Origin: Streptomyces sp. NBC_01707
GTDB lineage: Bacteria; Actinomycetota; Actinomycetes; Streptomycetales; Streptomycetaceae
NCBI RefSeq assembly: GCF_041438805.1
Contig: NZ_CP109190.1
Coordinates: 5,766,001-5,830,000 of the forward strand
DNA length: 64,000 bases
Direction: 5' to 3'
Within the stretch, counting starts at the first letter, position 1, and the number at the start of each line of letters is the position of its first letter. This document shows positions 43,933 through 63,675 of this stretch, piece by piece. Under the pieces are notes generated by a model. The model searched no databases. It was not told the DNA's origin and saw nothing but the letters and a program-made list of their open reading frames with translations. The position numbers were made by a program, and so were the translations under genes.

Positions 43933-43975
43933 TGCCCCCGACAGGATTCGAACCGGCGACACCCGCTTCAGAATG
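43933..43975 (-). repeat. att-like tRNA-Arg 3'-half repeat a (most diverged)
   Basis: Minus strand reads the tRNA T-arm and acceptor end with a few changes: GACAGG in place of GGCAGG, CGGCG in place of CTGCG, and CAGAATG at the anticodon end. GGTCCGGGGCC just left (43910-43920) recalls the tRNA terminator seen at repeat d. It marks the left border of the island and is probably no longer recombinogenic. Confidence 0.75.
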
Positions 43976-44149
43976 TGCATCATTCTCGATCTCGTACCCC
44001 GGTTGAGTGACGGCCACCGTGTGGTGGGGTGCGGCGTGGGCGAGCAGGGTGACGTGAGAGAGCGGGGCGTGCGGGTCGACAGCCAAGGGCTGTCCCGACA
44101 GCCCTTAGCCTGAGCTGGCCAGGAGCCCAGTCGACGTCGGGAGCAACAC
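43976..44149. other. Non-coding stretch with hairpin 44085-44106
   Basis: AAGGGCTGTC (44085-44094) and GACAGCCCTT (44097-44106) pair around two bases, 44 bases before the next gene. With so tight a loop it may be an operator rather than a terminator. No coding frame is convincing. Confidence 0.4.
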
Positions 44150-45259
44150 GTGGCAAGGCTGGGAGTGTGGAAGTGGGCGGGAAAGCGGAGCCGCCTGCTG
44201 CCCGCCGTCCTGCTTCTCTTCGCCGTGTCGATGGACCTCGCCACACCGCGCACCGTCAGCGCTGCGGCCCTCTACGCGGCCGCGATCCTGACGGCCGCCC
44301 CCCTGCTGTCCCTGCGCGGCACCATCATCACCGGCGTGAGTGCGTTCCTCCTCGACTGGGCCATGTTCCGGATCTTCGGCTACCGCCGGAGTCCGGTCGA
44401 GTTCAGCGAGCTGGCCATGGTTGCGACAGTGACCGTGATCGCGGCCTTCCTGAATCGCCTCCTGGCCAACCGAGAGATGCAGCTGCAGTCCGTACGCGAT
44501 ATCGCCGCCGCTGCTCAGCGTGCAGTTCTGCCACACCCGCCGGAGAGAATCGGCCCGCTGCGCTTCGCCGCACACTACGAGGCCGCTCAGACGGATGCGC
44601 AGATCGGCGGGGACCTCTACGCGGTGGTCGACACTCCGTTCGGTGTGCGCTGCGTGATCGGTGATGTGCGTGGCAAGGGGATGGAAGCAGTCAGGGCGGT
44701 CGCGGTCTGCGTCGGGACTTTTCGAGAGGCGGCCCTGCAGGAGCCCAGCCTGGCCGGCCTCGTGCAACGGCTGGAGCGGGCCGTCACCCTCGATGCTCGG
44801 CAGGCAGGGAGCCTGTTCGAGAGCGAAGGGTTCATCACAGGCGTGTTCGTGGAATTCCCGCAGCGAGGAAACGAATTCCGGTTGGTCAACCGCGGGCACC
44901 CGGCGCCTCTGCTGTTCCTGGGAGACACAGTGCAGTACGTCGAGCCCGGTCGGCCGGATCTGCCTCTGGGCCTGGCTGCCCTCGGTGCCGGCCCCGAGTG
45001 CGTCGACACGGTGACGTTCCCCGAAGGAGCCAGTCTGCTGCTGTACACCGACGGGCTGACCGAGGCCCGGGACGAGACGGGCACCTTCTACGACCCGGTC
45101 GGCAGGTTCACGGGACATCGCCATCCCGGCCCGGACGCCCTCGTCGACGACCTGCTCGCCGACGTGCACAGGCACACGGGTGGTACGAGAACCGACGACA
45201 TGGCGCTGCTGGCCATCACCCGTACACCCGACGACGCACGACCGACGAGCCCTCGATAG
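44150..45259 (+). CDS. Membrane-anchored PP2C/SpoIIE-family serine phosphatase
   Basis: 369 residues from GTG at 44150 with GGGAG upstream. About four membrane helices occupy residues 14-110, followed by the SpoIIE/RsbU-type phosphatase domain. Metal-binding motifs are visible: QIGGDLYAVV and VIGDVRGKGMEA (Asp residues), NRGHPAPLLF, LLYTDGLTEARDE and TDDMALLAI. Such enzymes dephosphorylate anti-anti-sigma factors in partner-switching stress pathways. There is no GAF or PAS sensor, so the membrane part is the likely input. No sigma-factor genes adjoin it. It is the first gene inside the island. Confidence 0.92.
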   Translation: MARLGVWKWAGKRSRLLPAVLLLFAVSMDLATPRTVSAAALYAAAILTAAPLLSLRGTIITGVSAFLLDWAMFRIFGYRRSPVEFSELAMVATVTVIAAFLNRLLANREMQLQSVRDIAAAAQRAVLPHPPERIGPLRFAAHYEAAQTDAQIGGDLYAVVDTPFGVRCVIGDVRGKGMEAVRAVAVCVGTFREAALQEPSLAGLVQRLERAVTLDARQAGSLFESEGFITGVFVEFPQRGNEFRLVNRGHPAPLLFLGDTVQYVEPGRPDLPLGLAALGAGPECVDTVTFPEGASLLLYTDGLTEARDETGTFYDPVGRFTGHRHPGPDALVDDLLADVHRHTGGTRTDDMALLAITRTPDDARPTSPR

Positions 45260-45360
45260 TGACGCTCCCGGCTCCGGGGGTATCGCCGTCTCGGTGACGG
45301 CGGTGACGGATGCGCGCCTCATGGGCGCAAGCGCGAGTGCGGACGTCACGGCATCCGGGC

Positions 45361-45391
45361 TTGACGTTCACACTAATGTCAACCTTTAGCT
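45361..45391 (+). promoter_or_regulatory. MerR-type promoter/operator of the SDR gene
   Basis: TTGACG (45361) and TTAGCT (45386) are spaced 19 bp apart, the over-long spacing typical of MerR-activated promoters. Between them lies TTGAC-N12-GTCAA. The centre TTCACACTAATG is nearly the same as TTCACACTACTG in the merR upstream operator at 46889. Confidence 0.65.
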
Positions 45392-45439
45392 TCGGTTCAG
45401 TAGCTGAAAGCCAGCTGAACGGCGCAAGGAGACATTGCC

Positions 45440-46195
45440 ATGTCCAAGGCTCTGACAGGACGGACTGCGCTCGTGACCGGAGGGTCGCGGGGTATCGGTG
45501 CGGGGATCGCTCGTGAACTGGCACGCGAGGGTGCAAACGTTGTCATCACCTACCGAAAGTCGCGCGAGCAGGCGGAAGAGGTTGTCGCGGACCTGGCCGC
45601 TCTGGGGGCGAAGGCGCTTGCCGTGCAGGCGGATCAGTCCGTTCCCCACGAGGCGTCGACCGCTGTCGAACAGGCTGCCGAGTTCCTGGGCGGCCGGATC
45701 GATGTGCTGGTGAATTCTGCCGGAGTCGCCGTCATGGGAACCGTCGACCAGTTGGACCTGGACCTTCTCGAAGGAGTCCAGCAGATGATGGCCACCAATG
45801 TGATGGGGACCGTCGTCACCACGCATTCCGCATCGCGCTATCTGCCCGACGGCGGGCGTGTCATCTTGGTGGGAAGCAATGTCGCCCACCGCATTCCTGT
45901 CCCTGGCGTTGCCGAATACGCGGCAAGCAAGGCAGCGATCGACCAGCTCGGCCGCGGGTGGGCGCGCGACTTCGGCCCGCGCGGCATCACCGTCAATGTC
46001 GTACAGCCCGGGGCGACCGACACGGACATGAACCCTGCGGACGGGCCGAATGCTGCCCCGCAGGTGGCCATGACACCCCTGGGGCGCATGGGCACCACCG
46101 AGGACGTTGCCAAGGCGGTCGTCTTCCTCGCCGGTGAGAACGCTGCGTACATCACAGGCGCACGGTTGACCGTCGATGGCGGATTCAGCATCTGA
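45440..46195 (+). CDS. SDR-family oxidoreductase, MerR-controlled
   Basis: 251 residues from ATG at 45440 with AAGGAGAC upstream. Classical SDR: TGGSRGIG at about 14-21, VNSAG near 90, catalytic VGSN and YAASK near 155, and a GARLTVDGG end. It resembles FabG-like reductases that act on small carbonyl compounds. The MerR-type promoter before it and the convergent MerR gene just downstream suggest induction by the regulator's ligand, perhaps a reactive aldehyde or quinone. Confidence 0.92.
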   Translation: MSKALTGRTALVTGGSRGIGAGIARELAREGANVVITYRKSREQAEEVVADLAALGAKALAVQADQSVPHEASTAVEQAAEFLGGRIDVLVNSAGVAVMGTVDQLDLDLLEGVQQMMATNVMGTVVTTHSASRYLPDGGRVILVGSNVAHRIPVPGVAEYAASKAAIDQLGRGWARDFGPRGITVNVVQPGATDTDMNPADGPNAAPQVAMTPLGRMGTTEDVAKAVVFLAGENAAYITGARLTVDGGFSI

Positions 46196-46218
46196 TTTGG
46201 GAGCAGCACCCGTAGCGT

Positions 46219-46265
46219 GCGGTGCTCCGGTGCCAGGACGGCAGTCGACGGCACCGGAGCACCGC
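46219..46265. terminator. Bidirectional 16-bp hairpin terminator
   Basis: Arms 46219-46234 and 46250-46265 are perfectly complementary (GCGGTGCTCCGGTGCC on the left) around a 15-base loop, between the convergent SDR and MerR genes. Confidence 0.8.
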
Positions 46266-46391
46266 CACTGGGGAATCGGCCCGTCGCGACGTCCTCGAGC
46301 CCGCCTCCGTCACACCGGCAGCGTCAGCCCTGCGCCTCATCGATGGCGCCTTCCGGCAGGTGAGCGCTCGGCCGCGTGAGTCTCGCCGCTG

Positions 46392-46808
46392 TCACTCCGC
46401 AACCAGGACCAGGACTCCGTCCGCGGTCGTGGGCGTGGGGACCGTGGCGTCCTCGCGGAGGCGCAGGTAGGCCTCGATCGCGCGCTGGTTGCGTTGCAGC
46501 ACGTCGATGCGCCGTTTGATGCTGCTGAGTTGACGTCGCAGACCGTCCAGGTCCTTTGCGTCGGGACACTCCCGGGCGTGCGCATCGCCCTCGGCGGACC
46601 CGAGGCAGGGCAGGACCTCGCGGATCATCTCCGTCGTCAGACCGGCTTCGAGGAGTTCGCGGATCTGCAGTACACGGTCGATGGCCGGCTCGCCGTACGT
46701 GCGGTATCCGTTGGGACTCCGGAACGGCGTCAGGATGCCGACCTCTTCGTAGTAACGAAGCAGCCGCGGCGCGACACCGGTCTTCGCGGCCAGTTCTCCG
46801 ATCTTCAT
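46392..46808 (-). CDS. MerR-family transcriptional regulator
   Basis: 138 residues from ATG at 46808 with GGGAGGG upstream on the minus strand. The N-terminal winged helix-turn-helix MKIGELAAKTGVAPRLLRYYEEVGIL and the wing NGYRTYGE are textbook MerR. A coiled-coil dimer helix follows (LDGLRRQLSSIKRRIDVLQRNQRAIEAYL). Cys residues at about 68 and 81 lie in the loop region but not in a metal-site arrangement, so a metal ligand is doubtful. It is convergent with the SDR, shares its operator pattern, and probably regulates itself. Confidence 0.93.
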   Translation of the reverse strand: MKIGELAAKTGVAPRLLRYYEEVGILTPFRSPNGYRTYGEPAIDRVLQIRELLEAGLTTEMIREVLPCLGSAEGDAHARECPDAKDLDGLRRQLSSIKRRIDVLQRNQRAIEAYLRLREDATVPTPTTADGVLVLVAE

Positions 46809-46888
46809 ATTGCCCTCCCTTGTCGGGTATTCGTGCGGACGGTACGCCTCGTCCTCGCACAGGCAGGCGATCTTGCCTTCGACCGCTG

Positions 46889-46914
46889 AACCTTCACACT
46901 ACTGGAAAGGTTCG
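46889..46914 (-). promoter_or_regulatory. MerR operator upstream of its own gene
   Basis: GAACCTT-N12-AAGGTTC, a 7-bp inverted repeat 81 bases before the merR start. The spacer begins CACACTACTGG, close to the spacer of the SDR promoter site. Confidence 0.65.
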
Positions 46915-47213
46915 GCTTCTTCCGCAGTCCGGAATGTGAGATCGAACCGCCCGCGCCACGACTCGGTGACAGCCGGACAGCGCCGGACCCTCCCCCGCCA
47001 TGACCTGGGAGGGTCCAGCGCTTATGCGTTCTCTGCGGCACCCTCGCCACGGTGCTGTGACCTGGACGAACGGGAGCGTAGGCGCACCCAGGGTGGTGGG
47101 AGAAGATCTCTCCCACTCTCCCCTCGTTGCCCTGCCCGTCGGGGAGCTACTGGTTCGCTGGGGGACCTTGCGGAGTCCACCGGTCCGTGCCCGGTCGGAG
47201 ACGTCCGCCTGGC
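46915..47213. other. Gap with terminator hairpin 47096-47116
   Basis: GTGGGAGA (47096-47103) pairs with TCTCCCAC (47109-47116) around AGATC, about 100 bases after the stop of the minus-strand FG-GAP gene and likely its terminator. No coding frame in the gap is supported. Confidence 0.5.
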
Positions 47214-48638
47214 TCAGTCGAGCAGCGTCTCACCGAGCCGTGATCCGCTCGCGAGGCCGAAGTCGGCCGAGCTGAGGGACTTGGAACCGGAACCGGTGAG
47301 GCCGGACGAAGTACCCGGGAGGGTCCACAGGCCTCCGCTGCGGTCGTTCTCGAAGGAGGCGGTCACCGCCAGGTCTGCCTTGCCGTTGTTGTTGTAGTCG
47401 GTGAGCCGGACCTGGGCGCCGAAGAGGTCATCGGTCTCCGCGACGCCCGGAACGCCGGCGGTGTCCTGGGAAATGCGCACGACTCCGGATTGCGAGACAC
47501 CGGAGGCGGAGCCGCGGAACACTGTCACGTCACCGGCGTTCTCCAGATTGCCGAGCCATTCGCCGTTGGCGCCGACCACCAGTTCGGCCTTGCCGTCGCC
47601 GGTGATGTCGCCGATCGCCACCGAGGATCCCCAGCCGTCGCCGTCCTCGTCGGCGCCGGGCACACCGGTGCTGTTCTGGTGCAGGGTCACCGGGTCGCCG
47701 AAGCCCGTCAGGCTGCCGTACCGGACGGTCACGTAACCGGAGCCGTTGCTGGGGTCGTCGACGTAGTAGGTGTCGGGCCAGGTGAGGGAGGTGGCCATGT
47801 CGTCGAAGCCGTCGCCGTTGATGTCGCCGAGGGCGACCGCGGTGCTCCCGTCGTCCACGCGCTGTATCCGGTTCGGACGGCCTTCCTGACCTGTGTAGAT
47901 GTCGGTGCCCGGGCGTCCGGTGCCGGGATTGCCGGTCACGGCCAGGTCGTGCTTGCCGTCTCCGTTGACGTCGCCCACGGCTGCTTCCCAATTGAGGAGC
48001 TGGGCACCCGGGACCGCCATGGTGTACGCGGGGGTTGTCTGGCTCTCCCGGGAGTGGCCGCCCTTGTATACGACGACCGCGTCCGGCTCGATCACGGCGA
48101 GGTCCGCGCCGCTGTCACCGGTGAAGTCCCCCACCGCCACGTCCAGGCCATGACTCTGCCACTGGTGTGGGTTGTCCACCGTGGTCGTGGTGCTGCTGGT
48201 GAACGGCTTGGCGCCGCCCCAGAGGATGGTCACGCTGCCCTGGCCCTCGTACGCGCCCACGTCCTCACCGTCGGCGCCCACAACCAGGTCCGCGTATCCG
48301 TCCGAGTCCAGGTCTCCGCTGGCGATCGACATACCGAAGCGGTCGCCCTCTTCCGGTGTGCCCGGCACCCCTGCGGAACTCTGGTTGAGCCCGATCTTCT
48401 GCGTGGTCAGTCCGGTGGCCGATCCGAGAGACACGACCACACCACCCGCAGCAGAGGCGCCGTTGATGGACTTGTACGGCGCGCCGATCGCGATGTCCCG
48501 GTGTCCGTCGCCATTGAAGTCGTCGGCGTATCTGGCGGGGGCGGCGGACGCCGGTGCCGCGGTCACAGCGGTGAACAGGCCACCAGCCAGCGCGGTTACG
48601 GTCGCGGCGGCGACAACGGTGCGGAAGGGCAGAGACAT
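47214..48638 (-). CDS. Secreted FG-GAP/VCBS repeat protein (integrin-alpha-like beta-propeller)
   Basis: 474 residues from ATG at 48638 with AAGGAGAAG upstream; the frame stays open back through repeat b without a real start. A Sec signal covers about 1-32 (ending PASAAPA). Then come seven FG-GAP blades, each with a calcium-type DxNxDGxxD loop: DFNGDGHRD, DLDSDGYAD, DFTGDSGAD, DVNGDGKHD, DINGDGFDD, DITGDGKAE and DYNNNGKAD. The fold is a seven-bladed propeller displayed outside the cell for binding or adhesion. No catalytic module is attached. Confidence 0.9.
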   Translation of the reverse strand: MSLPFRTVVAAATVTALAGGLFTAVTAAPASAAPARYADDFNGDGHRDIAIGAPYKSINGASAAGGVVVSLGSATGLTTQKIGLNQSSAGVPGTPEEGDRFGMSIASGDLDSDGYADLVVGADGEDVGAYEGQGSVTILWGGAKPFTSSTTTTVDNPHQWQSHGLDVAVGDFTGDSGADLAVIEPDAVVVYKGGHSRESQTTPAYTMAVPGAQLLNWEAAVGDVNGDGKHDLAVTGNPGTGRPGTDIYTGQEGRPNRIQRVDDGSTAVALGDINGDGFDDMATSLTWPDTYYVDDPSNGSGYVTVRYGSLTGFGDPVTLHQNSTGVPGADEDGDGWGSSVAIGDITGDGKAELVVGANGEWLGNLENAGDVTVFRGSASGVSQSGVVRISQDTAGVPGVAETDDLFGAQVRLTDYNNNGKADLAVTASFENDRSGGLWTLPGTSSGLTGSGSKSLSSADFGLASGSRLGETLLD

Positions 48639-48942
48639 GACGGTCTTCTCCTTGGAGCAGTGTGGGGCGATGCCGTAGACGACCCAAGTGGTTGAAGGGT
48701 TGTACGAGGCAGGCCGTACGTTTGCGCAACCCGACTGATTCGTCCGAGTGCGCCGCCTCGCGGCGGAATCGGCCGGCAGCCTCGGCCGGCGCATCCGAAA
48801 CCGGGTACGTCCGGCATCAGGCCCGGTGGCGGCGCCCTCTACGACGACGAGACCGAGGACCGCCACCGTCGCGCCCTGCCCCTCCCAGCCGCGCGGATGT
48901 CGAAGACCTCCGGCTGTGATCGGCTGGGGGTCTTTTCGCTTG
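48639..48942. other. Upstream region of the FG-GAP gene
   Basis: 304 bases between the FG-GAP start and repeat b. It presumably holds the minus-strand promoter. GC-rich repeats of CGGCCGGC occur near 48770-48792. No gene seen. Confidence 0.4.
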
Positions 48943-48985
48943 TGCCCCCGACAGGATTCGAACCTGCGACACCCGCTTAAGGGGT
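48943..48985 (-). repeat. att-like tRNA-Arg 3'-half repeat b
   Basis: The minus strand carries the T-arm and acceptor end. It shares the GACAGG variant with repeat a, has the normal AACCTGCG, and reads CTTAAGGGG at the anticodon end. No tRNA 5' half follows. Confidence 0.82.
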
Positions 48986-49506
48986 TCGACCGACCGGACA
49001 CGGGATCACGGCCACACGCCTCCGGCGTCGGAACGGGATGCCGCCCTGCACTCTCGGATCCGGTGTTGCGCGCTGACGTTGCCGTCGACCGCTGCCGTCA
49101 CGACCTCCAGCCGAAGCTGCTCGGCCCCGGCCCCGGCCATGGCCCCGGCCACCGTGGCGCCGGCCGCCCCTGGGATGCCGGCGAGCTTCGCCTCACAAGT
49201 TGTCCGATCGCCGTCCGGGGTGTCCACGGGCATCCGCCACATGGGCCCAGCTGCTGGTCAGGGCGCCTGCCGGACATCATGTTCGCAGTCGTCCGCCTGT
49301 GCTCGTCGGCGTTGTCACGCGGTGGGACACCCAGCCGCGCCGGTGACTGATCGCCTTGTCTCGTTGGCAACTCGACGCGGTGGGCGCAGACATCCATGTG
49401 ACGGCGTCCGTCGTCCGGGTAGTCGGCGAAGGCGCACCGATGAGTTCCGCCGGCCGGGCCGGTCTACCAGTACGTACGCCATCGACTCACCGACTGGAGA
49501 CCCACC
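48986..49506. other. 521-base stretch with possible gene debris
   Basis: A minus-strand frame at 49006-49242 (78 codons) has coding-like composition (CEAKLAGIPGAAGATVAGAM) but no good ribosome site and no family I know; it may be the tail of a decayed gene. The rest appears non-coding up to the VOC gene. Confidence 0.3.
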
Positions 49507-49977
49507 ATGACGAATCCCGCACACCCGGGCCGCACGCTGTTCGTGAACATCCCCGTGGCGGACCTCGAGCTCAGCAAGGCGTTCTTCGCCAAGCTCGGGT
49601 TCGGCTTCAACCCGATGTTCACCGACGAGACCGCCGCCTGCATGCTGGTCGGCGAGCATGCCTTCGTCATGCTGCTCAGCCGCGAGAAGTTCGCGGAGTT
49701 CGCGAAACTGCCGATGGCCGATCCCACCACGCACACGCTGGCCCTGTACTGCTTCAGCGTGTCGTCCCGCGATGAGGTCGATTCGGTCAGCGCCGCTGCA
49801 GTCGCGGCGGGCGGCTGCGAGGTGGATGGCGCCGAGGACCATGGCTTCATGTACTCACGCAGCTTCTACGACCTCGACGGCCACGGCTGGCAAGTCATGT
49901 GGATGGACCCGGCAGCGGCGGAGCAGGGCCCCGAGGCGTTCGCGGCCTCCGCGCAGGGCGCCGATACCCCGGCCTGA
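49507..49977 (+). CDS. VOC-superfamily/glyoxalase-like protein
   Basis: 156 residues, ATG at 49507 with GGAGACC upstream. TLFVNIPVADLELSKAFFAKLGFGFNPMF is the first VOC repeat of the bleomycin-resistance/YkgJ-like lactoylglutathione-lyase group, and FMYSRSFYDLDGHGWQVMWMDP closes it. The last 20 residues are an Ala-rich tail. Such proteins bind or act on small toxic molecules. Function undetermined; cargo of the second island segment. Confidence 0.9.
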   Translation: MTNPAHPGRTLFVNIPVADLELSKAFFAKLGFGFNPMFTDETAACMLVGEHAFVMLLSREKFAEFAKLPMADPTTHTLALYCFSVSSRDEVDSVSAAAVAAGGCEVDGAEDHGFMYSRSFYDLDGHGWQVMWMDPAAAEQGPEAFAASAQGADTPA

Positions 49978-50494
49978 CCCACCACGCGTAAGGCACGTGG
50001 CAAAGCGGTCGTCAACGGCTGCCCCACCGCCTGAAGGCCTCGGACCAACTGCGCGGGTGTCGGCGAGCTGCCGCGGGCGTACCGGACGCAGCAGTGTGCG
50101 GGCGGCGCCGATGACCTGTGCCCGCCGGGGCAGCTGAACTCCCGCCCGTGTCGCGGCGGGGGAACAGAAGGCCGGGCACATGTTCGCAAGACCGTCCACT
50201 GCCACCTGTGGCATATGCGCGAGCGCATGGATCCTTCGCTCGGTCGGCCGGGCGGAACTTTAGGCATCGACCGGACCGTCTTTACTCTGGTCGATCCGCT
50301 GCCATTGCGGCTACCTCAGACCACTCGGCGCCGCTGCTGCTCACCATTGCGTCTCCTGCGACGCCTACGCGCCTTCGCATCGTGCTCAACAGACTTTCGT
50401 CCGGAGCGCGCCGGTATGCGAGCAGCCATTCCAGAGCCCCAGGATCCATGGGGCGCGGGCATGGCGCACGGTGACACTGTGTAGAGTCCCGCGC
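49978..50494. other. 517-base gap, no supported gene
   Basis: Several short frames overlap but none has both a ribosome site and a recognisable product. The sequence is less GC-biased near 50290-50400. It may contain decayed coding sequence. Confidence 0.35.
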
Positions 50495-51073
50495 ATGCCC
50501 GCACCCGTCATCGTTCGTGATGTTTTCCACCGGCTACAGGAAGAGCTGGGGGAGGAGGACGCCGGCATCACCTTCGAAAACGGCCCCGGCCCTCTCGACC
50601 GGATCGACGTCATGGTCCACAGGGCGGCGGATTCGTCGGGCGTCACCGTCTTCACCACGGTCGGGATGTCGGTCGAATCCATGCCCTCCCGTGACGGCCG
50701 AACAGGCGGCCGGGCGGAACTTCGTCTGTTCCGTCGTGGGCACGTGGAGCCGCAGGACGAAGGCCTCATCGCAATGTGCCTGGCAAACCTGGCGGCGTAT
50801 CCGTGGACGCTTGGGCGGGCTCTTGGCTGGGGAGAGGTCGTCACCTTTCCTGACGACGTGCCGACCTACCCGGGGTGCCGCCGCGCCTTCCTGGCGGGCC
50901 CTTGGACCGACGAGCAAACCGACTCCATACAGACCAGCACCGAAGCCGTTCGGGTGGTGAACGTTGTCCCGATCAGCGAATCGGAACGGGTTCAGGCCCT
51001 GGCGCTACGTCCCAAGGCGTTCTTCAGGGATCTGCTCGATGCGCGGGACGTGTTTACGCCGCCCCACCCATGA
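50495..51073 (+). CDS. Suppressor-of-fused (SUFU)-domain protein
   Basis: 192 residues from ATG at 50495. GRAELRLFRR, MCLANLAAYPWTLGRALGWGEVVTFPDDVPTYPGC and VNVVPISESERVQAL form the bacterial SUFU domain. In bacteria such proteins are common as immunity proteins next to polymorphic or contact-dependent toxins. No toxin gene adjoins it here, so it may be an orphan immunity gene brought in as island cargo. Confidence 0.83.
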   Translation: MPAPVIVRDVFHRLQEELGEEDAGITFENGPGPLDRIDVMVHRAADSSGVTVFTTVGMSVESMPSRDGRTGGRAELRLFRRGHVEPQDEGLIAMCLANLAAYPWTLGRALGWGEVVTFPDDVPTYPGCRRAFLAGPWTDEQTDSIQTSTEAVRVVNVVPISESERVQALALRPKAFFRDLLDARDVFTPPHP

Positions 51074-56493: not shown

Positions 56494-56569
56494 CGCTGAC
56501 CCCCTCCACCCGGTTTTCATGAGCTGGAGCAGGCATAGCACCGCTTGCCTGCTCCATCAACCAACCATT

Positions 56570-56657: not shown

Positions 56658-56782
56658 GAACGACTGTGAGGATTGGTCATCGCACCGCTCGGCGGCCTCG
56701 TCGCACTGGGGCACGTCATGAAGCCCGCGCGATGAGTCGGCCTGCTCGCATTGAGACGCGACTGTCGTCAAATGGTGCCGTC

Positions 56783-56818
56783 AAAAGGCCCCGGACCATG
56801 ATCGGTCCGGGGCCTTTT
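56783..56818 (-). terminator. 15-bp perfect terminator hairpin next to repeat d
   Basis: AAAAGGCCCCGGACC (56783-56797) and its exact complement (56804-56818) flank ATGATC. Transcription leftwards through the tRNA 3' end would meet it 7 bases after the acceptor, so it is most simply the native tRNA terminator. Halves of it also sit by repeats a and c. Confidence 0.85.
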
Positions 56819-56824
56819 GCCTGG

Positions 56825-56867
56825 TGCCCCCGGCAGGATTCGAACCTGCGACACCCGCTTTAGGAGT
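56825..56867 (-). repeat. att-like tRNA-Arg 3'-half repeat d (left end of the Int element)
   Basis: On the minus strand it reads ACTCCTAAAGCGG (anticodon loop with CCU), the variable arm, GCAGGTTCGAATCCTGC (T-arm) and CGGGGGCA (acceptor end). Identical to repeat e. Confidence 0.9.
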
Positions 56868-57317
56868 TCGATCCACCCGCTGCCTGTCGGGCTCCACCCG
56901 TGCACGCTCTGACCATTCGCGACCGCTGAACGCTGCGGCTGTCCGTAGTCGTTGATGTCAACGCTGGATGTCAGCGGAACAGCTCCGGCATTGGGCAGAC
57001 CTCCACCGGTGGATCCGGGCTCATTCGCAGCGCGGTGAGGATCGGCCGTGCCGCCTCCTTCTTCCCACACGAGGATGTCAGAGTGCTTACCAGCCACCGG
57101 CCACAACTATGGGTGACGGCGCCAGGATCAGCGACCCACGGTGAGATATTGCCGCAATGTAAACAAATCAGACGTTCCAGGATGCAGAAATATCCAGACA
57201 GGGCCCACAGATCAGACAGACGGGCTTTCAGCCAACCGGTTTCACCACGCTTTACAGCCAGGCATATGCCATTCGATGATCCCAGTCCCCACACGGGGAA
57301 TCACTGGGAGGGGTTTC
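56868..57317. other. 450-base gap; AT-richer promoter region of the Lcn972-like gene
   Basis: No gene supported. From about 57130 to 57300 the sequence is clearly poorer in GC (GCAATGTAAACAAATCAG) than the genome, consistent with acquired DNA and with the promoter of the secreted peptide gene. Confidence 0.5.
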
Positions 57318-57815
57318 ATGAAGATCACCGGTAGATCCGTCGCTTTCACCATCGCTGGCGCAGCTCTGGCTGTTGGCGGCCTCGTGGCGCCGGCCACCGC
57401 GGACAGTTCTCAGCTCAGCGCGTCTGCGATCGCGAGCACCCCCGGAGCTACCGTCACCGTCCACCATCGTGGGGACGGCACCCAGCCGCCCGCAGAGCTG
57501 GGTAACCCCTCTGAGTGGGGTGTGGTGACGATCAAGATGGACGCTGCGGCGGGCTCCGTTAGCCCGCTGTCTGAGGCCTGCGTCAGTGCCAGTGGCGGCA
57601 ACTGGTGTTACGGCTGGTACACCACGGAAGTCAGCACCGGGGTATTCAATAAGTACTGCTACTCGAACTACTACCATTACACGAAGAGCCACGCGTCCAC
57701 GGTGAAGATCGCTGGCGGCACGAGGAAAGATACCGCTCCAGCCAACGCCACCTCTAACGCCCACCTCACTGCGGGTCTCGCCTACACCTGCTCTACGTAC
57801 TACAGCATCGATTAG
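57318..57815 (+). CDS. Lactococcin 972-family bacteriocin-like secreted protein
   Basis: 165 residues from ATG at 57318 with GGGAGGGG upstream. Signal peptide about 1-29 (hydrophobic core, APATA/DS). The mature C-terminal half has the Lcn972 layout: GGNWCYGW, then YSNYYHYTKSHASTV, a short polar linker, and a final AYTCSTYY. Lactococcin 972 itself is a lipid II-binding inhibitor of septum formation in lactococci. This protein is longer and has four Cys residues. Active Lcn972 systems also have a large membrane immunity protein and an ABC transporter; here only a small membrane protein follows. Base composition is lower in GC than its neighbours. Confidence 0.75.
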   Translation: MKITGRSVAFTIAGAALAVGGLVAPATADSSQLSASAIASTPGATVTVHHRGDGTQPPAELGNPSEWGVVTIKMDAAAGSVSPLSEACVSASGGNWCYGWYTTEVSTGVFNKYCYSNYYHYTKSHASTVKIAGGTRKDTAPANATSNAHLTAGLAYTCSTYYSID

Positions 57816-57958
57816 GCTCTGATCCCCGCACCGATCAGTAACTCCATGCAGGGTGCGGTCGGTTGGTGTGCCGCTCGGGGGCTGGTCCGTTGCCCGCGCA
57901 GTCCCCGAGTAGTACCACCTCCACCTCTGGCTTAATCACGGAACGGGGAAGAGGGATC

Positions 57959-58600
57959 ATGCGCTTTCCGCGCACTAGTGTTGCACCGATCGCTGTGTCT
58001 ATCGGGACGGGTTTGCTACTTGGCCTAGCGGGTCCCGTTGCCGGAAAGTTGGACAACGCCGTTTGTGTCACCCTAAGTGTGGTCCTTTCCGGAGGGTGGC
58101 CGTGGGCCTGTTATGCATTCTTGGTGGGCTATTTCCGCCGATCCAAAATTGAGTCAGCACTGCTGTCATCTTTGGGGTTGGCTATCGGTGTGGTTGCATA
58201 CTACCTCTTTAAGGACATGTACCCCGCTATCCCGGCCGGGCTGGAATCGGGCGCCTCCGGCGAAGGGCTTTCCTCTCGGATTCTCGTGTGGGGAATAGCG
58301 GCGTTCATTTTCGGTGCCCCCGTGGGGCTCGTGGGAAATCTGGCACGGACTCCCGGAATTGGCGGCCTATTTTTCCGCCTCCTTATTCCGCTGACCGCCT
58401 ACATTGAGACCTCTCAGCGCTTGCACACAGAAGCGGACTCGCAGGGTGCGATTGTCGGAATTACCTGGACCGTGATCCGCGTCACCGCATGCGTTGTCGG
58501 CGTGTCTCTTGTGGGGCACACGGTATGGAGCTGGTGGCGTGATCGGCGCAACCGACCCGAAGACCGGCAAGGAGTCGGCGTGCCAGTCAATCACCCCTGA
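57959..58600 (+). CDS. Membrane protein with foreign codon use, next to the Lcn972-like gene
   Basis: 213 residues, ATG at 57959 with GGGGAAGAGGG upstream. About five or six membrane helices and a short basic tail (WWRDRRNRPEDRQ). Codon use is unlike the genome: CTA, TCT, ATT, GTT and AAT are frequent. This indicates recent transfer from a lower-GC source. It resembles no transporter I know. Position, 144 bases after the bacteriocin-like gene in the same direction, makes immunity to the peptide a testable idea. Confidence 0.72.
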   Translation: MRFPRTSVAPIAVSIGTGLLLGLAGPVAGKLDNAVCVTLSVVLSGGWPWACYAFLVGYFRRSKIESALLSSLGLAIGVVAYYLFKDMYPAIPAGLESGASGEGLSSRILVWGIAAFIFGAPVGLVGNLARTPGIGGLFFRLLIPLTAYIETSQRLHTEADSQGAIVGITWTVIRVTACVVGVSLVGHTVWSWWRDRRNRPEDRQGVGVPVNHP

Positions 58601-58730
58601 CGCATCGTCCGTGCGTGGTGATGCCCCAATGGGGTCCCGTGGCGTCTACATGCCGGGCAAATCCGCCAGGATTCGCCGACGATCGGTCCCGTTGGTGTCA
58701 GCCGCTGATGTCATCGCCAGATGGACCCGT

Positions 58731-59000
58731 TCAGGAGGCCGGGCCGGTGTCCGTACGTACGTACCCGATGGCGACGAGTCCCGCTCCGATGACAGCGGCA
58801 GTCGGAGACCAGAATGCGCCCCATACAAGCAGGAGGGCGCCTGCCCCCCACACCCTTGGCCGCCTGACGTGCCGCTGTAGCCAGCGGCCGGGGACTCGTC
58901 CGAGGAACAGGGCATGGATGCCGAGTACGGCACCCGTCAGTGCAAGCGCGATCGCTACGAACAGCGCGCCGAGCACCATAGCCCCAAAAGCCAATCCCAC
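58731..59000 (-). CDS. Small membrane protein
   Basis: 89 residues from GTG at 59000 with TAAGGGGGT upstream on the minus strand. Two or three membrane helices: MVLGALFVAIALALTGAVLGIHALFLG, then VWGAGALLLVWGAFW and AAVIGAGLVAIGYV. Basic loop between them. Similar small membrane proteins occur in actinomycete integrative elements, where some (Spd) help plasmid spread; that role is only a guess here. Confidence 0.7.
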   Translation of the reverse strand: MGLAFGAMVLGALFVAIALALTGAVLGIHALFLGRVPGRWLQRHVRRPRVWGAGALLLVWGAFWSPTAAVIGAGLVAIGYVRTDTGPAS

Positions 59001-59576
59001 GGCCTACCCCCTTAACGCCACCCTTCGGCGGCTGGCCCAGTGTGGCAGAGGGAGCGACCGCCCGAGAGTGGTTGAGGCGGCAGCGTTCGCCGCTCTGCTC
59101 AACCCACCACTCACCCCAGCTCCCATCCCGTCCGCCTTCGGCCAACACACTGTGGAGCGGGCGTGGTTCAGGGCGTCAAGGTGGAGCGCGCCACCGTACG
59201 AACGACCTTGACGCCCTGGGCCGCGACTGCTCGGCTCTGCCTGGGGCGAAGGTGGTCGGGATGGGAGCCCACCACGCTCACCACGAATCTGCCGGTACCC
59301 GCGAACGGCGTCCCGACCCATCCCGGAGTCTGAGCGCCCCGCCGGAGGCATGTCCCTGAGCCGCGGACGACTTCCTCGCTCCCACCCGCAGCACGTAGCG
59401 CGCCGCCTGGCGCGGCCAGCCGGGGCGAAGACAGAGGCGGGCCGCGCCGCTGAGGCGGCGCGCACCCGCGCCGTGCGCGGGTCTTGATGAAGTAGGGAAA
59501 CTCTTACCGCGCTCATGGCCCGTGGGGCTCCATGAGAGCTGTCTGCAGACCAACCACCTGAGCTACGGTGCGATTC
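59001..59576. other. Gap holding dispersed repeat copy 2 and a 14-bp hairpin
   Basis: 59111-59199 repeats 56570-56657. Inside, CAGGGCGTCAAGGT (59169-59182) and ACCTTGACGCCCTG (59205-59218) form a perfect 14-bp stem with a 22-base loop, a likely terminator in either direction. From 59220 to 59576 no gene is supported, although short frames on the minus strand are Arg/Ala-rich. Confidence 0.6.
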
Positions 59577-60134
59577 ATGCCTTCCGTATTGGACACACCC
59601 CAGGGAGCGGCCGAGCTGGCCGAGTCGCTGTTGCCGCCGCTTGGGAATCGCTGGCTTCACACGCAAGCTGTCGCGCAACGTGCTCGCCAGGCATCGGCGG
59701 CTGTGCCAGCGGATGAGCGGGATCTGCTCGTTGCCGCTGCGTGGCTCCATGACATCGGATACGCCCCAGAGCTGCGGGATACCGGCTTCCACCCCATCGA
59801 TGGTGCTCGTTACCTGGAAACCCTCGGGGCGCCGTCACGCCTCGTGCGACTGGTCGCCCATCACTCCGGCGCCGTCTACGAGGCAGAGCAACGCGGGCTC
59901 TCCGCTGAGCTGGACGTGTACGAGCGGGAGGACTCCCCGCTTCTGGACGCGCTCATCTACGCCGACATGACGACGGGGCCCGCTGGCCAGCCCTTCGACT
60001 TCGGCCGGCGGATTGATGAAATCTTGGTCCGCTACGAGCCGGGCGGCGAGGTGCACACCGCGATCAGCAAGGCGCGGCCGTACCTGGGTGCCGCTGTAGA
60101 GCGGACCCGTACGCGGCTCTCCGCTGGTTCGTGA
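59577..60134 (+). CDS. HD-domain phosphohydrolase
   Basis: 185 residues from ATG at 59577 (a GTG at 59568 would add three). The metal-site residues of the HD superfamily are all present: H28 in WLHTQAV, H58-D59 in AAWLHDIGY, and D130 in ALIYADM. The nearby RLVAHHSGA adds two more His. Small HD proteins hydrolyse phosphate esters of nucleotides, including dNTPs and signalling nucleotides. Its place in a mobile element, near a Nudix gene, hints at control of nucleotides during element transfer or phage attack, unproven. Confidence 0.87.
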   Translation: MPSVLDTPQGAAELAESLLPPLGNRWLHTQAVAQRARQASAAVPADERDLLVAAAWLHDIGYAPELRDTGFHPIDGARYLETLGAPSRLVRLVAHHSGAVYEAEQRGLSAELDVYEREDSPLLDALIYADMTTGPAGQPFDFGRRIDEILVRYEPGGEVHTAISKARPYLGAAVERTRTRLSAGS

Positions 60135-60143
60135 GGACTCCGC

Positions 60144-60476
60144 ATGTCTGATCAAGTCCGATCCCCCGCGCACCATGCAGTCGAGCATGAGGACGTGGAG
60201 ACTTTGGCCCAGCTGCTCGACGCCGGGGCAGACCCTAACGAGGTCGACGGCAGTTTGACGCTGCTTACCCATGCCATCGACATCGAGGGGGATGGAGCCC
60301 AGCAGCAGGGGGAGCCTCTCACCGTGCACACCACGGCAGTGCTCTTGGCCTACGGCGCAGATCCTCAATTGGTCGATCCCCAAGGGAATACGCCCATGTC
60401 GATCGCTGAGGAATACGGGCATGAACTCGCGATCCGTCTCCTACGCAGGTACCTGGCTGGCAACCTCTTGCGTTAG
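60144..60476 (+). CDS. Ankyrin-repeat protein
   Basis: 110 residues, ATG at 60144. Two recognisable repeats: PAHHAVEHEDVETLAQLLDAGADPNEVDG (about 8-36) and LTVHTTAVLLAYGADPQLVDPQGNTPMSIAEEYGHELAIRLL (about 59-100). Ankyrin stacks bind partner proteins. It starts 9 bases after the HD gene, so the two are probably one transcript and may form a complex. It overlaps the convergent Nudix gene by 4 bases. Confidence 0.85.
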   Translation: MSDQVRSPAHHAVEHEDVETLAQLLDAGADPNEVDGSLTLLTHAIDIEGDGAQQQGEPLTVHTTAVLLAYGADPQLVDPQGNTPMSIAEEYGHELAIRLLRRYLAGNLLR

Positions 60477-60943
60477 CCGATGTAAGGCTCGGATCGGCGC
60501 GCTTGGCCGTGCTCGATCCGCATCTGCATGGACGGATGGATGTTCAGCCCGTCCAACCTGTCGGGGGCGACGAAGGCGACTTCTTTGCTCTCGCTGCTTG
60601 TCCGTAGCTCGCCGCCGACGATGCGGGCCGTGAAGCAGATCGAGAACTGTTGTCGTACCTCGCCGTCGTCATACGCCATAACGTGCGCGGGGTTGGTGTA
60701 GAGGCCGACCAGTCCGGTCACCTCTACGTCGAACCCCGTCTCTTCCTTCGTCTCGCGTACCGCGGCATCGGCAACCGACTCGCCGACGTCGACCCCGCCG
60801 CCCGGCAAGGCCCACAGATCGTTGTCGGTCTTGTGGATCAGTAGGACTTCCCCGGCCTCGTTCAGGGCCACGACCGTCACCGAAGGGACGATGCTGTTCG
60901 CCTTCGGAGCGTTCGGATCGTTGATGTAGTCGACGCGGGCCAT
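60473..60943 (-). CDS. Nudix hydrolase, possible Pif-like immunity factor
   Basis: 156 residues from ATG at 60943. The Nudix box is complete: G49-x5-E55-x7-R63-E64-T65-x-E67-E68-x-G70-F71. It hydrolyses nucleoside diphosphates linked to another group. In pSAM2, the Nudix protein Pif blocks redundant conjugation between element-bearing cells, and genes of this type travel with RepSA-type elements. The Xis, Int and RepSA remnant beside it make a Pif-like role plausible; house-cleaning of damaged nucleotides is the alternative. Confidence 0.9.
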   Translation of the reverse strand: MARVDYINDPNAPKANSIVPSVTVVALNEAGEVLLIHKTDNDLWALPGGGVDVGESVADAAVRETKEETGFDVEVTGLVGLYTNPAHVMAYDDGEVRQQFSICFTARIVGGELRTSSESKEVAFVAPDRLDGLNIHPSMQMRIEHGQARRSEPYIG

Positions 60944-60977
60944 GTCTCCAGCGTCGCACGTCCGTCGTCCGGCCTCC

Positions 60978-61385
60978 CTAGGCGGGGCGACCTCGCTCCC
61001 ATGCGTAGTCGAAGCTCCGCATGTAGTGGCGGAAAGTGCGGGCGCCGGGGATGTAGCGGAAGTGCAGCACCGGGTTCTGCCCTGCGGGTGCTCCGAGGAC
61101 GTGCGGATTCACCAACACGTCGTCGTCGAAGCGGTAGATGGAGTTGTACAAGATCGTGTCGTGCAACCGGACCTCGATGCCTGGCGTCGTGGCCACCGGT
61201 TTGAGGTAACGGCCGGTGATCCGGGCGCGGGCGGCAAGGTCGTCGCCGATGCCTTCTTCCTCGCCTCGCTGGCGCAACATCGCCGAGTCCGGATCGCCGA
61301 GCAATATCCGCACTTCAGCCCCGCTCTTGGCCTTGTCGGCCAATTGGCTGGGAAGGTCCTCGCCGTGCCAGGCGTGTGGGGTCGC
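60978..61385 (-). pseudogene. Truncated XRE/DUF5919-type regulator (C-terminal part)
   Basis: The coding-like part reads SQLADKAKSGAEVRILLGDPDS, then RFDDDVLVNPHVLGAPAG and FRHYMRSFDYAWERG, the C-terminal (DUF5919) domain of helix-turn-helix regulators common beside Nudix genes in Streptomyces elements. The N-terminal DNA-binding part is missing: upstream of about 61385 the sequence switches to the RepSA gene on the other strand. It is a gene broken by deletion, probably the element's own regulator. Confidence 0.75.
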
Positions 61386-62212
61386 CGGTGGCCGGACTGA
61401 CGCAGGCGGCCTGCAAGGAAGAGGCGCGGGTCTCGTTCGGGAAGGTCGCCGAGTTCCAAAAGCGCGGCGCGGTCCACTTCCACGCGGTCGTCCGCATCGA
61501 CGGACCGGACGGGCCCGACACCCCGGCCCCGGCCTGGGCCACCGTCGAACTCCTCGACGACGCGATCCGGGCCGCCGCCACACGCGCCACGGTTCCCGTC
61601 CCTTCCGCCGGCCGATTCCCCGCCCGGACGCTGCGCTGGGGAACACAGATCGACGTGCAGCCCATCGGCGCCCTTGAAGGCCAGGCCGACGTCAGCGAAC
61701 AGGCCGTGGGGGCCTACGTCGCCAAATACGCCACCAAGGCAGCAGAGACCACCGGCACCCTCGACCGCCGCATCGGCGAACTCCGCGAACTCGACCTCCA
61801 CCCCCACCTGCCCGACCACACCCGACGTCTGATCGAGGCCTGCTGGGACCTGGACACCGCCTACCCGGAACGACTGCTCGCCCACTGGTCCCACATGCTC
61901 GGCTTCCGCGGCCACTTCTCCACCAAAACACCCCGCTACTCGACCACCCTCGGAGCCCTGCGCGGAGCACGCGCCGACTGGCGGGCCCAGCAAGAACGCC
62001 GGGAACGCGGCCTCGGACCCCTCGACCAGGACGACGACCAGACAGAGGACACCACCCTGGTCATCGCCCACTGGGAGTACGCCGGACAGGGCCACACCCC
62101 CGGCGAATCCTGGCTCGCCCAATCCATCGCCAACGAGATCAGGCAAAACCGCGAACTTGCCCGAGAGAACCGCACCGAACTGGAAGCCTTCGACACCGCG
62201 GGGGAGTGGTGA
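61376..62212 (+). pseudogene. Truncated RepSA-type replication initiator
   Basis: About 270 residues of the C-terminal part remain, from LTQAACKEEARVSFGKVAEFQKRG on. The HUH-type motif VHFHAVVR (His at frame positions 34 and 36) and GAYVAKYATKAAETTG with the nucleophilic Tyr region are kept. Full RepSA proteins of pSAM2-type elements are considerably longer, so the front is lost where it meets the truncated regulator. RepSA starts rolling-circle replication of the excised element; this copy should be inactive. Its stop is 2 bases before the xis ATG. Confidence 0.85.
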
Positions 62213-62214
62213 CC

Positions 62215-62424
62215 ATGGAACGGCTGCTCACTGTTGACCAGGTCGCCGAACTTCTCGGCACCACCGTCCGGTTCCCCCGGCGGCTCATCGAGGAACGCCG
62301 AATCACCTTCGTGAAGGTAGGCCGACACGTCCGCATCCCCGAGAGAGCCGTCACCGCCTTCATCGACGCCCACACCTTCGAGCCGGTCGCTCGTCGCTCG
62401 GCTGGCCTTCGGAGGGTCGCCTGA
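62215..62424 (+). CDS. xis: Excisionase (Xis), winged-helix DNA-binding protein
   Basis: 69 residues from ATG at 62215 with GGGGGAG upstream. LLTVDQVAELLGTTVRFPRRLIEERRITFVKVGRHVRIPE is the MerR-like/excisionase winged helix. It directs the integrase toward excision. It follows the RepSA remnant by 2 bases, and its stop overlaps the int start (TGATG), the normal pSAM2 order. Confidence 0.92.
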   Translation: MERLLTVDQVAELLGTTVRFPRRLIEERRITFVKVGRHVRIPERAVTAFIDAHTFEPVARRSAGLRRVA

Positions 62425-63551
62425 TGGCGAACAGGAAGGGCAACCGTCGGCGTTTTGGTTCGGTCCGGCAACTCAAGTCAGGTCGTTGGCAGGCTCGGTA
62501 CCGCGACCCTGTGACCGGGCAGCTTCGCAGTGCCGAGCAGACCTACGCGACGAAGACGGACGCGGAAGTCGCGCTGACGCACATTGAGGCGGACATCTCG
62601 CGCGGCCAGTGGGAAGTCCCGGACAAGCGGGCCGTTCCGTTCGCCGAGTACGCCGATGCGTGGCTGCGGGACCGAAAGCTGGCTGCCCGCAGCAGGGAAC
62701 GGAACGAGGCAGTGATCCGGCTGCACATCAGGCCGACGTTTGGTTCGGGATCTCTGGCCGACGTCACCACGTCCCGTGTCCGGGCCTGGCGTGGCCAGCT
62801 GCTCGCGGCCGGGGTGGGGGAGCCGACCGTCGTCAAGGCGTATCAGGTCCTTCGAGCCATCATGAACACGGCTGTTGACGATGAACTCGTTCGTCGTAAC
62901 CCCTGCCGGGTCAAGGGGGCCGATCGGTACGACGTGCCCGAGCGCCCGGTGTTGACCGTGGCCGAGGTGTACGCGGTGGCCGAGGCCATGGCGCCGCGCT
63001 ACCGGCTGCTCGTCCTGCTCGCGGCCTTCACCACACTGCGGTTCGGTGAGCTGGCGTCGCTGCGCCGCCGGGACATCGACACCGCCGGGCGGGTGGTCCT
63101 GGTGCAGCGCGCCCAGGCCGAGATGCAGGACGGCAAGCTGTTCGACAAGGCTCCGAAGTCGGCGGCCGGCGTCCGTCCCGTCGCCTTCCCGGACGAGATC
63201 CTGGCCGACGTCATTGAGCACCTGGAGCGCTACGCGGGGGCGGGCCGTGACGGCCACGTCTTCCTTGGCCCCCAGGGCGGACAGCTGCGGCGCAGCAACT
63301 TCCGGGACGACTGGATCAAGGCGCGCATGGATGCGGGCATCGCTGCCGATGTCCACTTCCACGATCTGCGGCACACGGGAAACACCCTGGCTGCTGCCGG
63401 GGCGAGCACGCGTGAGCTGATGACGCGCATGGGGCACAGCACCGCCCGTGCCGCGTTGATCTATCAGCACATGACTGCCGACCGGGACCGTGCGATCGCC
63501 GATCGGCTGGGGTCGATGATCCGCCAGCGGCAGGGAGACGCCGGGACGTAG
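62424..63551 (+). CDS. int: Tyrosine-recombinase integrase (Int)
   Basis: 375 residues starting at ATG 62424 inside the xis stop. N-terminal arm-binding domain (GSVRQLKSGRWQARYRDP), core-binding SAM-like domain (about 72-160), and catalytic domain with the full set: R206 (TTLRFGEL), K245, H313-x-x-R316 (HDLRH), H338 (GHST) and Y347 (IYQH). It recombines attP and attB at the tRNA-Arg 3' end. Its gene ends 82 bases before repeat e, the usual place for Int beside attP. All catalytic residues are present, so it may be active. Confidence 0.96.
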   Translation: MANRKGNRRRFGSVRQLKSGRWQARYRDPVTGQLRSAEQTYATKTDAEVALTHIEADISRGQWEVPDKRAVPFAEYADAWLRDRKLAARSRERNEAVIRLHIRPTFGSGSLADVTTSRVRAWRGQLLAAGVGEPTVVKAYQVLRAIMNTAVDDELVRRNPCRVKGADRYDVPERPVLTVAEVYAVAEAMAPRYRLLVLLAAFTTLRFGELASLRRRDIDTAGRVVLVQRAQAEMQDGKLFDKAPKSAAGVRPVAFPDEILADVIEHLERYAGAGRDGHVFLGPQGGQLRRSNFRDDWIKARMDAGIAADVHFHDLRHTGNTLAAAGASTRELMTRMGHSTARAALIYQHMTADRDRAIADRLGSMIRQRQGDAGT

Positions 63552-63584
63552 TGGCACGTGTGTGGCACGGACGCGATCATGCGA

Positions 63585-63625
63585 AAGGGCCAGTTCGAGA
63601 GGATCAACCCTCTGAACTGGCCCTT
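63585..63625 (+). terminator. Terminator of int
   Basis: AAGGGCCAGTTC (63585-63596) pairs with GAACTGGCCCTT (63614-63625), and AGAGG with CCTCT inside, with one bulged G and a 6-base loop. It stands 34 bases after the int stop and 7 bases before repeat e. Confidence 0.85.
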
Positions 63626-63632
63626 AATGCTG

Positions 63633-63675
63633 TGCCCCCGGCAGGATTCGAACCTGCGACACCCGCTTTAGGAGT
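63633..63675 (-). repeat. att-like tRNA-Arg 3'-half repeat e (right end of the Int element)
   Basis: Identical to repeat d over all 43 nt. Right of it (from 63676) the sequence is TGGGAT..., not the AGCGG expected if the tRNA anticodon stem continued, so the tRNA is still incomplete here and the array should continue beyond the window. Confidence 0.9.

Follow-up and report, generated by a model that had tools for sequence, protein, structure and literature searches.

What does it mean when the end of one transfer RNA (tRNA) gene recurs several times along a bacterial chromosome, and do the pieces of DNA between the copies still move? The question is raised by a stretch of 64,000 nucleotides (the window) from Streptomyces sp. 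NBC_01707 (contig NZ_CP109190.1, positions 5,766,001 to 5,830,000), in which five copies of the 3′ half of a tRNA-Arg(CCU) gene, called cores a to e here, all lie on the minus strand in one orientation. The locus is an accretion array of actinomycete integrative elements (AICEs). In the reading that we favor, at a probability of roughly 84%, it grew by accretion and was reshaped by deletions that fused neighboring elements, and some of the recombinase-less remains stay mobile through the integrase of an inner neighbor. The cores are located in the window as follows.

43932-43972, minus strand: core a, the outermost displaced copy of the tRNA-Arg(CCU) 3′ half, 4 mismatches in 41 nt
48942-48982, minus strand: core b, 2 mismatches in 41 nt
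55486-55526, minus strand: core c, one G lost from the acceptor-stem G run
56824-56864, minus strand: core d, 0 mismatches to the core of the gene
63632-63672, minus strand: core e, 0 mismatches to the core of the gene

An initial annotation had described a five-copy, four-segment array of 20 kb in which a and b share GACAGG, c is one base short and d and e are identical. The copies and their groups hold, with true starts one or two bases from those first given, and all five align to the strain's own tRNA-Arg(CCU) gene as displaced 3′ halves with 0 to 4 ungapped mismatches in 41 nt; the four mismatches of core c are really one deleted G (one C on the plus strand). The extent had to be revised. 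The gene itself (anticodon CCT; G000:C1:5859476-5859549, minus strand) lies outside the window at window coordinates 93476-93549, and the 29.8 kb between it and core e form a fifth, inner segment, the element E1. The full array has six copies of the gene end and five segments in 49.6 kb, in the outward order E1, core e, d-e, core d, c-d, core c, b-c, core b, a-b and core a. Chance origin of the repeats is excluded because a 37-nt core pattern with at most three mismatches finds six sites in the 9.9-Mb genome, six such sites lying within the array, while the reversed pattern finds none in all 392 genomes tabled. A tRNA-Phe called by ARAGORN at 63634-63697 is core e misread.

How did the copies arise? 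Successive insertion at a single tRNA gene, as first proposed, agrees with the common gene and orientation, the outward decay of the cores, the conserved flank and the complete elements found in relatives. Core decay increases outward (e 0, d 0, c one deletion, b 2, a 4), and the same outward rise was found in 23 arrays with at least three copies, the innermost omitted (permutation p 0.006; 0.009 without this genome). The outer flank can be followed into relatives by two features.

22065-38173, no strand: native chromosomal block, with counterparts flanking this side of the gene in the relatives G015, G076 and Streptomyces sp. JH14
40098-43064, minus strand: SARP-like regulator of the outer flank, close to the same native block in G089 and G146 and present at the JH14 locus

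Counterparts of G015 proteins adjoining the same tRNA gene occupy 22065-37123 of the window, and G076 carries the block on to 38173, short of the regulator that starts at 40.1 kb. In G015, no displaced core lies within the 19.9 kb examined, and a native-block gene sits 3 kb from the tRNA gene. Because homology with the JH14 flank reaches 43788 and ends there, 144 bp short of core a, core a is the outer edge of the array as far as is visible. Among the contigs of six relatives, only that of JH14 has tRNA-Arg(CCU) cores within these flanks; it is the same locus with another set of segments, of which only c-d is common as a unit, so that the array is not the single ancestral block that had been named as the finding that would overturn stepwise growth. 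The locus thus has direct repeats of the 3′ end of a resident tRNA gene in one orientation, and other content or an empty site between conserved flanks in relatives (JH14 and G015). Segmental duplication of the tRNA 3′ end with its terminator, involving no mobile elements, might account for the similar sequence beside cores a to d. However, integrases, an excisionase and a RepSA gene lie within the array, and complete elements in relatives end at the same cores, which excludes such a duplication; we give it almost no credence.

What entered the gene, and how often? Relatives carry elements with an intact integrase gene adjoining the same tRNA gene. Three families are well represented, their integrase genes ending some 45-80 bp from the core: Int557 (the type in E1), Int375 (the type at 62.4 kb) and Int382. 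Every family has a left arm of its own just past the core and a right arm of its own just ahead of the next core. Among 101 segments, the arms were family-matched in 12 of the 13 classifiable segments with an intact integrase (14 in all), in 5 of 12 with an integrase fragment (14 in all) and in 19 of 47 without an integrase hit (73 in all); the difference between intact and none gives a Fisher p of 0.001. Segments with unclassified arms were excluded from the test (1/14, 2/14 and 26/73, respectively). An intact integrase was defined by at least 290 aa and at least 300 bits to the integrase panel, and three long distant integrases (G073, G220 and G394; one matched, two mismatched) were counted as fragments. 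The 43 arrays were chosen for many cores or kinship, not at random. The single exception with an intact integrase is segment d-e of the window, which, together with c-d, contains the following.

56865-63631, no strand: segment d-e, putative fusion joining an Int375 AICE (left end) to a 382-type element (right end)
61376-62212, plus strand: RepSA-type replication initiator without its N-terminal part (Pfam profile positions 191-437 of 438; about 190 positions gone)
62206-62424, plus strand: excisionase, 72 aa (HTH_17 / excise)
62424-63551, plus strand: tyrosine integrase Int375, 375 aa, 91% identical to the integrase of a tRNA-adjacent element in G030
63583-63631, minus strand: 375-type left attachment (attL) arm with the hairpin GGGCCAGTTC...GAACTGGCCC
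55523-56823, minus strand: segment c-d, recombinase-less unit with one gene, matched core to core in JH14
55523-55651, minus strand: 375-type right attachment (attR) arm (Rd) at core c; including some of the core, 84.6% identical to G076 (162 bp) and 75.8% to G242 (178 bp) at the right end of their complete Int375 elements
55666-56541, minus strand: 291-aa gene
56752-56823, minus strand: 382-type attL arm of core d with a terminator-like hairpin, matching the attL of a complete Int382 element

Segment d-e has a 375-type left arm, and its right arm at core d, ending in GATCGAACT, is a 382-type attR; in c-d the left arm is 382-type and the right arm 375-type. Since left and right arms differ in family, both segments are best read as deletion fusions of elements with different integrases, and the idea that each segment records one insertion had to be given up. 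Over 115 bp, core d and its left arm agree at 99% with the attL of a complete Int382 element in G094, the match ending at the integrase stop codon of that element. This match had suggested that core d might be the native 3′ end with the native terminator, a candidate dropped when the arm proved to belong to complete Int382 elements. In E1 both arms are 557-type, the right one, at core e, being CAATCCCACT. If one element brings one matched arm pair, at least seven insertions lie behind the five displaced cores, with two further cores deleted; about seven insertions would have built the array.

The two outer segments and their arms are as follows.

43893-43931, minus strand: 382-type hairpin (terminator-like), outward of core a
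43973-48941, no strand: segment a-b, no recombinase found
48903-48941, minus strand: decayed 382-type hairpin, left arm of core b
48983-55485, no strand: segment b-c, no recombinase found

The left arm of a-b is a decayed 382-type and its right arm is not recognizable. The arms of b-c are 382-type at both ends, the left one breaking off after 22 nt; the right arm at core b ends in GGTCGAACC, a 382-type attR. In a-b, b-c and c-d, no recombinase was found among ten open reading frames compared with Pfam or among frames of at least 60 aa compared with a tyrosine-integrase profile, and tblastn at E 0.01 found no Int382 fragments inside a-d. The three segments first described as lacking a recombinase thus do lack one as far as these searches reach; their arms, however, suggest that they derive from elements that once carried integrases.

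Could each of these segments be moved by Int375? Taken literally, four segments would be four insertions, three of them separately cis-mobilizable and each excisable by Int375. The perfect cores d and e and the missing recombinases in a-b, b-c and c-d would fit this, but d-e and c-d each pair arms of two families, and neither a-b nor b-c has a 375-type arm on the left or on the right, which makes the literal version very improbable. Mobilization by the integrase at 62.4 kb, as initially proposed, is plausible for a composite of d-e and c-d and is not indicated for a-b and b-c, whose arms are 382-type or decayed; nothing indicates that these two are mobile.

55486-63672, minus strand: predicted excisable composite e-c, 8.2 kb (Int375, Xis and 375-type attL at e; 375-type attR at c)

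At e, the window aligns with the complete Int375 elements of G076 and G242 at 83 and 79% over 2.3 kb; the right arm of c, together with some of the core, aligns with them at 85 and 76%. Int375 and Xis therefore have a matched pair of ends, with core d and segment c-d enclosed. That e-c can excise is, by this comparison, an evenly balanced prediction. Judged as an AICE, d-e has the integrase, excisionase and replication genes beside one attachment site, the last gene truncated; its arms are of two families, and neither a complete replication gene nor a TraB/FtsK-type transfer gene was found, no transfer family appearing in the nine frames scanned, short frames being outside that scan.

The order of arms at core d (382 attR, core, 382 attL) resembles an attP, and core d lies between two direct copies of a dispersed repeat (59095-59366 and 56552-56664) while e-c has a matched 375 arm pair. 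A circular 382-type element might accordingly have entered one Int375 element by homology at that repeat. JH14, however, has c-d including the repeat and no Int375-type left arm at its next inner core; c-d therefore need not depend on e, and nested insertion is disfavored as very unlikely. The repeat is palindromic and resembles a miniature inverted-repeat transposable element, has matches at 15 distinct places of the genome (itself included) on the chromosome and contig C2, many of them partial, and occurs in the G076 and G140 arrays at 91% identity. An Rfam mir-4776 match inside it, under the gathering score, was set aside.

On the favored reading of accretion and deletion-fusion, the steps would be as follows. 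An incoming element would recombine with the 3′ half of the gene, providing a new 3′ half and its own terminator-like hairpin, and each insertion would displace the old 3′ half outward, so that inner layers would be young and outer layers old. Later deletions would strip integrase, excisionase and replication genes and sometimes a core, leaving cargo between mismatched arms; at d the loss starts at the integrase stop codon. A piece retaining its right end might then leave with any inner element whose integrase fits that end, and Int375 with Xis (62.2-63.6 kb) would excise e-c with c-d aboard.

Is there evidence that recombinase-less pieces have moved? First, c-d itself recurs in JH14 from core to core at 96.0% identity over 1298 bp, with unrelated neighbors on both sides; the native flanks of the two strains are 86-92% identical and the native block used as yardstick is 91.0%. 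It has att-type cores at both ends and no recombinase, and the 115-bp Int382 match up to the integrase stop codon marks it as a deletion derivative of an integrative element, as in cis-mobilizable elements (CIMEs). The deletion at the integrase stop is common to both strains, so c-d formed once. Either both lineages inherited it and exchanged the layers around it for others, or it moved. Under accretion alone, the older outer layers would still be in common, and those of JH14 differ apart from 205 bp. We rate the chance that c-d has moved as a unit as just short of even.

Second, several small units without an integrase hit recur core to core in an all-against-all comparison of 106 segments. 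The clearest, F3, lacks a recombinase, measures about 2.6 kb and contains a 570-aa gene. Over 124 nt, its left end shares 91% identity with the left end of an Int610-type element (G025); one frame at that place reads, by eye, like the C-terminus of a tyrosine integrase. F3 occurs at 97-98% identity in 7 of the 392 genomes, with a 72-75% relative in six more. Cores lie at both ends of F3 in six of these seven genomes, two of which, G007 and G357, have a decayed or truncated left core; a third, G148, carries a 375-type arm in place of the first 210 bp, at the tRNA gene itself. The remaining genome, G138, gave a partial match, and no core was seen there. Each of the 15 pairs formed by the six genomes has 97.1-98.2% identity in the unit, against 83.2-91.6% in native DNA. 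Unit F1 gives 92.2 against 85.3% for native DNA, and the 15 pairs of F6 give 87.8-94.3 against 82.9-89.3%, every pair above its own native value.

Third, G093 and G220 have in common not only F3 but also the integrase-bearing element that adjoins it inward. Between the inner core of this element and the outer core of F3, stretches of 0.76, 13.7, 1.96 and 3.25 kb align in order at 96.0-99.4%, separated by three unaligned pieces (1.7-4.6 kb in G093). Nothing aligns past either end, and identity in the native block is 83.6%. Most probably, a single composite excised by means of the inner element's left end and F3's right end and later underwent insertions or losses. On this comparison, it would be a case of cis-mobilization.

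A graveyard of inert segments, inherited vertically and shrinking, with c-d common to JH14 by descent, would explain much of this without any movement. JH14 is a close relative with the same locus, integrase remains of differing length lie beside cores in other arrays, and arms are mismatched in 28 of the 47 classifiable segments without an integrase. Several further points weigh against mobility or against the favored reading as a whole. The excess of c-d over the native block is modest (96.0 against 91.0%), and 2 of 93 overlapping 1.4-kb native windows are equally similar. Outward of the c-like core in JH14, 205 bp are 72% similar to the SpoIIE gene of a-b, and the outer layers may have a distant common origin; 6.3 kb separates the outermost JH14 core from the common flank, against 144 bp here. 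As a unit, c-d is found in no other genome among the 392, and a related gene (69-92%) in 11 others has no core in the locus of about 3-4 kb examined. Units F4 and F7 exceed native DNA in similarity barely or not at all, and one F5 pair of six falls below it; F4, F7 and that part of F5 were not counted as evidence of transfer. Genome G140 has the 574-aa gene of b-c between the sole core of the stretch examined and the native flank, unlike a simple order of layers. The arm classes were defined from the same data, and the patterns were written after the arrays had been viewed. Finally, the excision of e-c is a prediction from sequence comparison, its outer end, core c, has a base deleted, and the truncated RepSA means that an e-c circle might not replicate or transfer. 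In a pure graveyard, however, older outer layers should be common at about the identity of the flanks, yet the neighbors of c-d are unrelated on both sides, and F3 reaches 97-98% identity among species that agree at 83-92% in their native DNA. We consider a pure graveyard an appreciable possibility that falls short of even odds.

A bolder extension of accretion and deletion-fusion would see an open cassette array whose fixed end is the tRNA-Arg(CCU) gene of Streptomyces, with c-d as one cassette and e-c as a loaded carrier. Small recombinase-less units (core, hairpin left arm, one or two cargo genes, right arm) would pass between species by leaving through their right end in the company of an excising inner AICE. 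We advance this tentatively and regard it as somewhat doubtful. It is not an integron-type array: the cores are tRNA 3′ halves and the integrases match Phage_integrase and the AICE panel, although attC sites as such were not searched for.

How common are such arrays? The numbers of core copies per genome in the 392 Streptomyces species, which are not necessarily at one locus as several genomes have copies elsewhere, are none in 16, one in 172, two in 115, three in 51, four in 18, five in eight and six or more in 12. The array studied here is large, not unique. Dense arrays were seen at G303:C20, G154:C83 and G166:C35. They have six, nine and seven cores, respectively, with 0-6 mismatches and spacings of 0.7-13.5 kb; the stretches examined contain no intact integrase, G166 giving two weak fragment hits, and some of their segments have genes that by eye resemble PIN-domain toxins. 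A relative of the c-d gene (72%) sits inside a 13.5-kb segment of the G154 array. Streptomyces sp. NBC_01549 has a relative of the c-d protein (91% identical; L138 10001-10699) about 4.4 kb outward of an apparent displaced 3′ half of tRNA-Arg(CCG) (L138 5588), perhaps another accretion site.

The arms may also bear on how the tRNA gene keeps a terminator. The 60 nt past the core fold much more stably than shuffled sequence, with median z of -4.7 at 36 gene-adjacent cores and -3.9 at 108 displaced cores, against 0.1 for 129 random stretches of the same arrays. In 42 distinct 382-type arms, 12 of 14 consensus-stem pairs vary on both sides, a compensatory pattern; in 31 375-type arms, 3 of 11 do; the 34 Int557-type arms gave no good consensus stem. 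The simplest reading is that an element which severs the tRNA gene from its terminator brings a substitute hairpin, for which, our literature search having been limited, we claim no novelty. Loss of one base in the acceptor-stem G run, seen at 55486 of the window, recurs in displaced cores of G148, G132, G196, G303 and JH14, and most of those seen have 382-type arms; either slippage in already displaced cores or common ancestry may account for it. At a distance of 3.4 Mb, G000:C1:2363835-2363913 matches the region of core a at 78%, with no core there within 11 ungapped mismatches.

The cargo genes of the segments in the window, and the beginning of E1, are listed below.

44150-45259, plus strand: SpoIIE phosphatase (a-b)
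45440-46195, plus strand: SDR oxidoreductase (a-b)
46392-46808, minus strand: MerR regulator (a-b)
47214-49001, minus strand: FG-GAP protein (a-b), true start probably further in
49507-49977, plus strand: glyoxalase-like protein (b-c)
50471-51073, plus strand: SUFU-like protein (b-c)
51848-52396, minus strand: DUF4262 protein (b-c)
53531-55255, plus strand: 574-aa protein, no family (b-c)
57141-57815, plus strand: lactococcin-972-like protein (d-e), C-terminal domain, Pfam above cut-off and NCBIfam below
59568-60134, plus strand: HD-domain protein (d-e)
60144-60476, plus strand: ankyrin protein (d-e)
60473-60943, minus strand: NUDIX protein (d-e)
63673-64000, no strand: start of E1, which continues to the tRNA gene at 93476 (G000:C1:5829673-5859475)

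E1 is 29.8 kb long, with its own 557-aa integrase (Int557) beside the tRNA gene. This innermost element has a biosynthetic cluster as cargo: at window coordinates 74966-80000 (L009 12966-18000), it carries genes for an FxLD-family lanthipeptide precursor, a lantibiotic dehydratase, a LanC-like cyclase and a thiopeptide-type protein. Beside core e, from 63889 onward, are a NACHT NTPase of 1187 aa (L009 1889-5452), a protein with a sub-cut-off GMT-wHTH match (L009 5921-7093) and a DUF5131 protein (L009 7148-7930), possibly a defense module. A plasmid search returned short matches only, the best covering 4%.

Compared to known integrative systems, the array has several likenesses and differences. 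First, in pSAM2 a RepSA-type replication initiator, Xis and Int stand in a row beside the tRNA-side attachment site. The same row lies beside that site in d-e; here, in contrast, RepSA is truncated and the element is fused to another. Second, CIMEs of Streptococcus thermophilus were reportedly described by Pavlovic et al. in 2004 as derivatives of integrative and conjugative elements that keep their att ends without an integrase, arise by deletion and accretion and were found mobile by experiment. The present case differs in phylum, target and transfer system, and mobility is judged here by comparison only.

Third, tandem AICEs at a tRNA gene are described for Sav3708/Sav3728 at tRNA-Arg of S. 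avermitilis and for Frankia, in which Fean6303 excises between attR and either of two attL sites and the pair Fean5518/Fean5534 excises singly and jointly (PMC3218068). The tandem arrangement is alike; unlike the Frankia elements with demonstrated excision, three of the five segments here have no recombinase, a fourth is fused, and all are known from sequence. Fourth, and closest, rhizosphere Streptomyces carry one to three AICEs or defective AICEs at one tRNA-Arg, with different integrase families, a common remnant and integrase loss, and cis-mobilization of defective neighbors was already proposed there (PMC9513070). Accretion at tRNA-Arg and loss of integrases are common to both cases, although the anticodon in that paper may differ; the present study adds six gene-end copies, fusions revealed by arms, one unit common with another species and a survey of 392 species. 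Among literature titles, no further work on accretion at Streptomyces tRNA-Arg was found.

The array in the window is a new, deep member of the known kind of AICE accretion at tRNA-Arg, and its additions to what is known are the arm analysis, the c-d unit common with JH14 and the G093/G220 composite. Arm types predict which pairs of cores recombine (e-c, and not a-b or b-c), and natural examples are provided of a recombinase-less unit common to distant species, once together with an integrase-bearing neighbor. If the favored reading is true, decayed elements at this tRNA gene would keep circulating, and their cargo genes would spread without a recombinase of their own.

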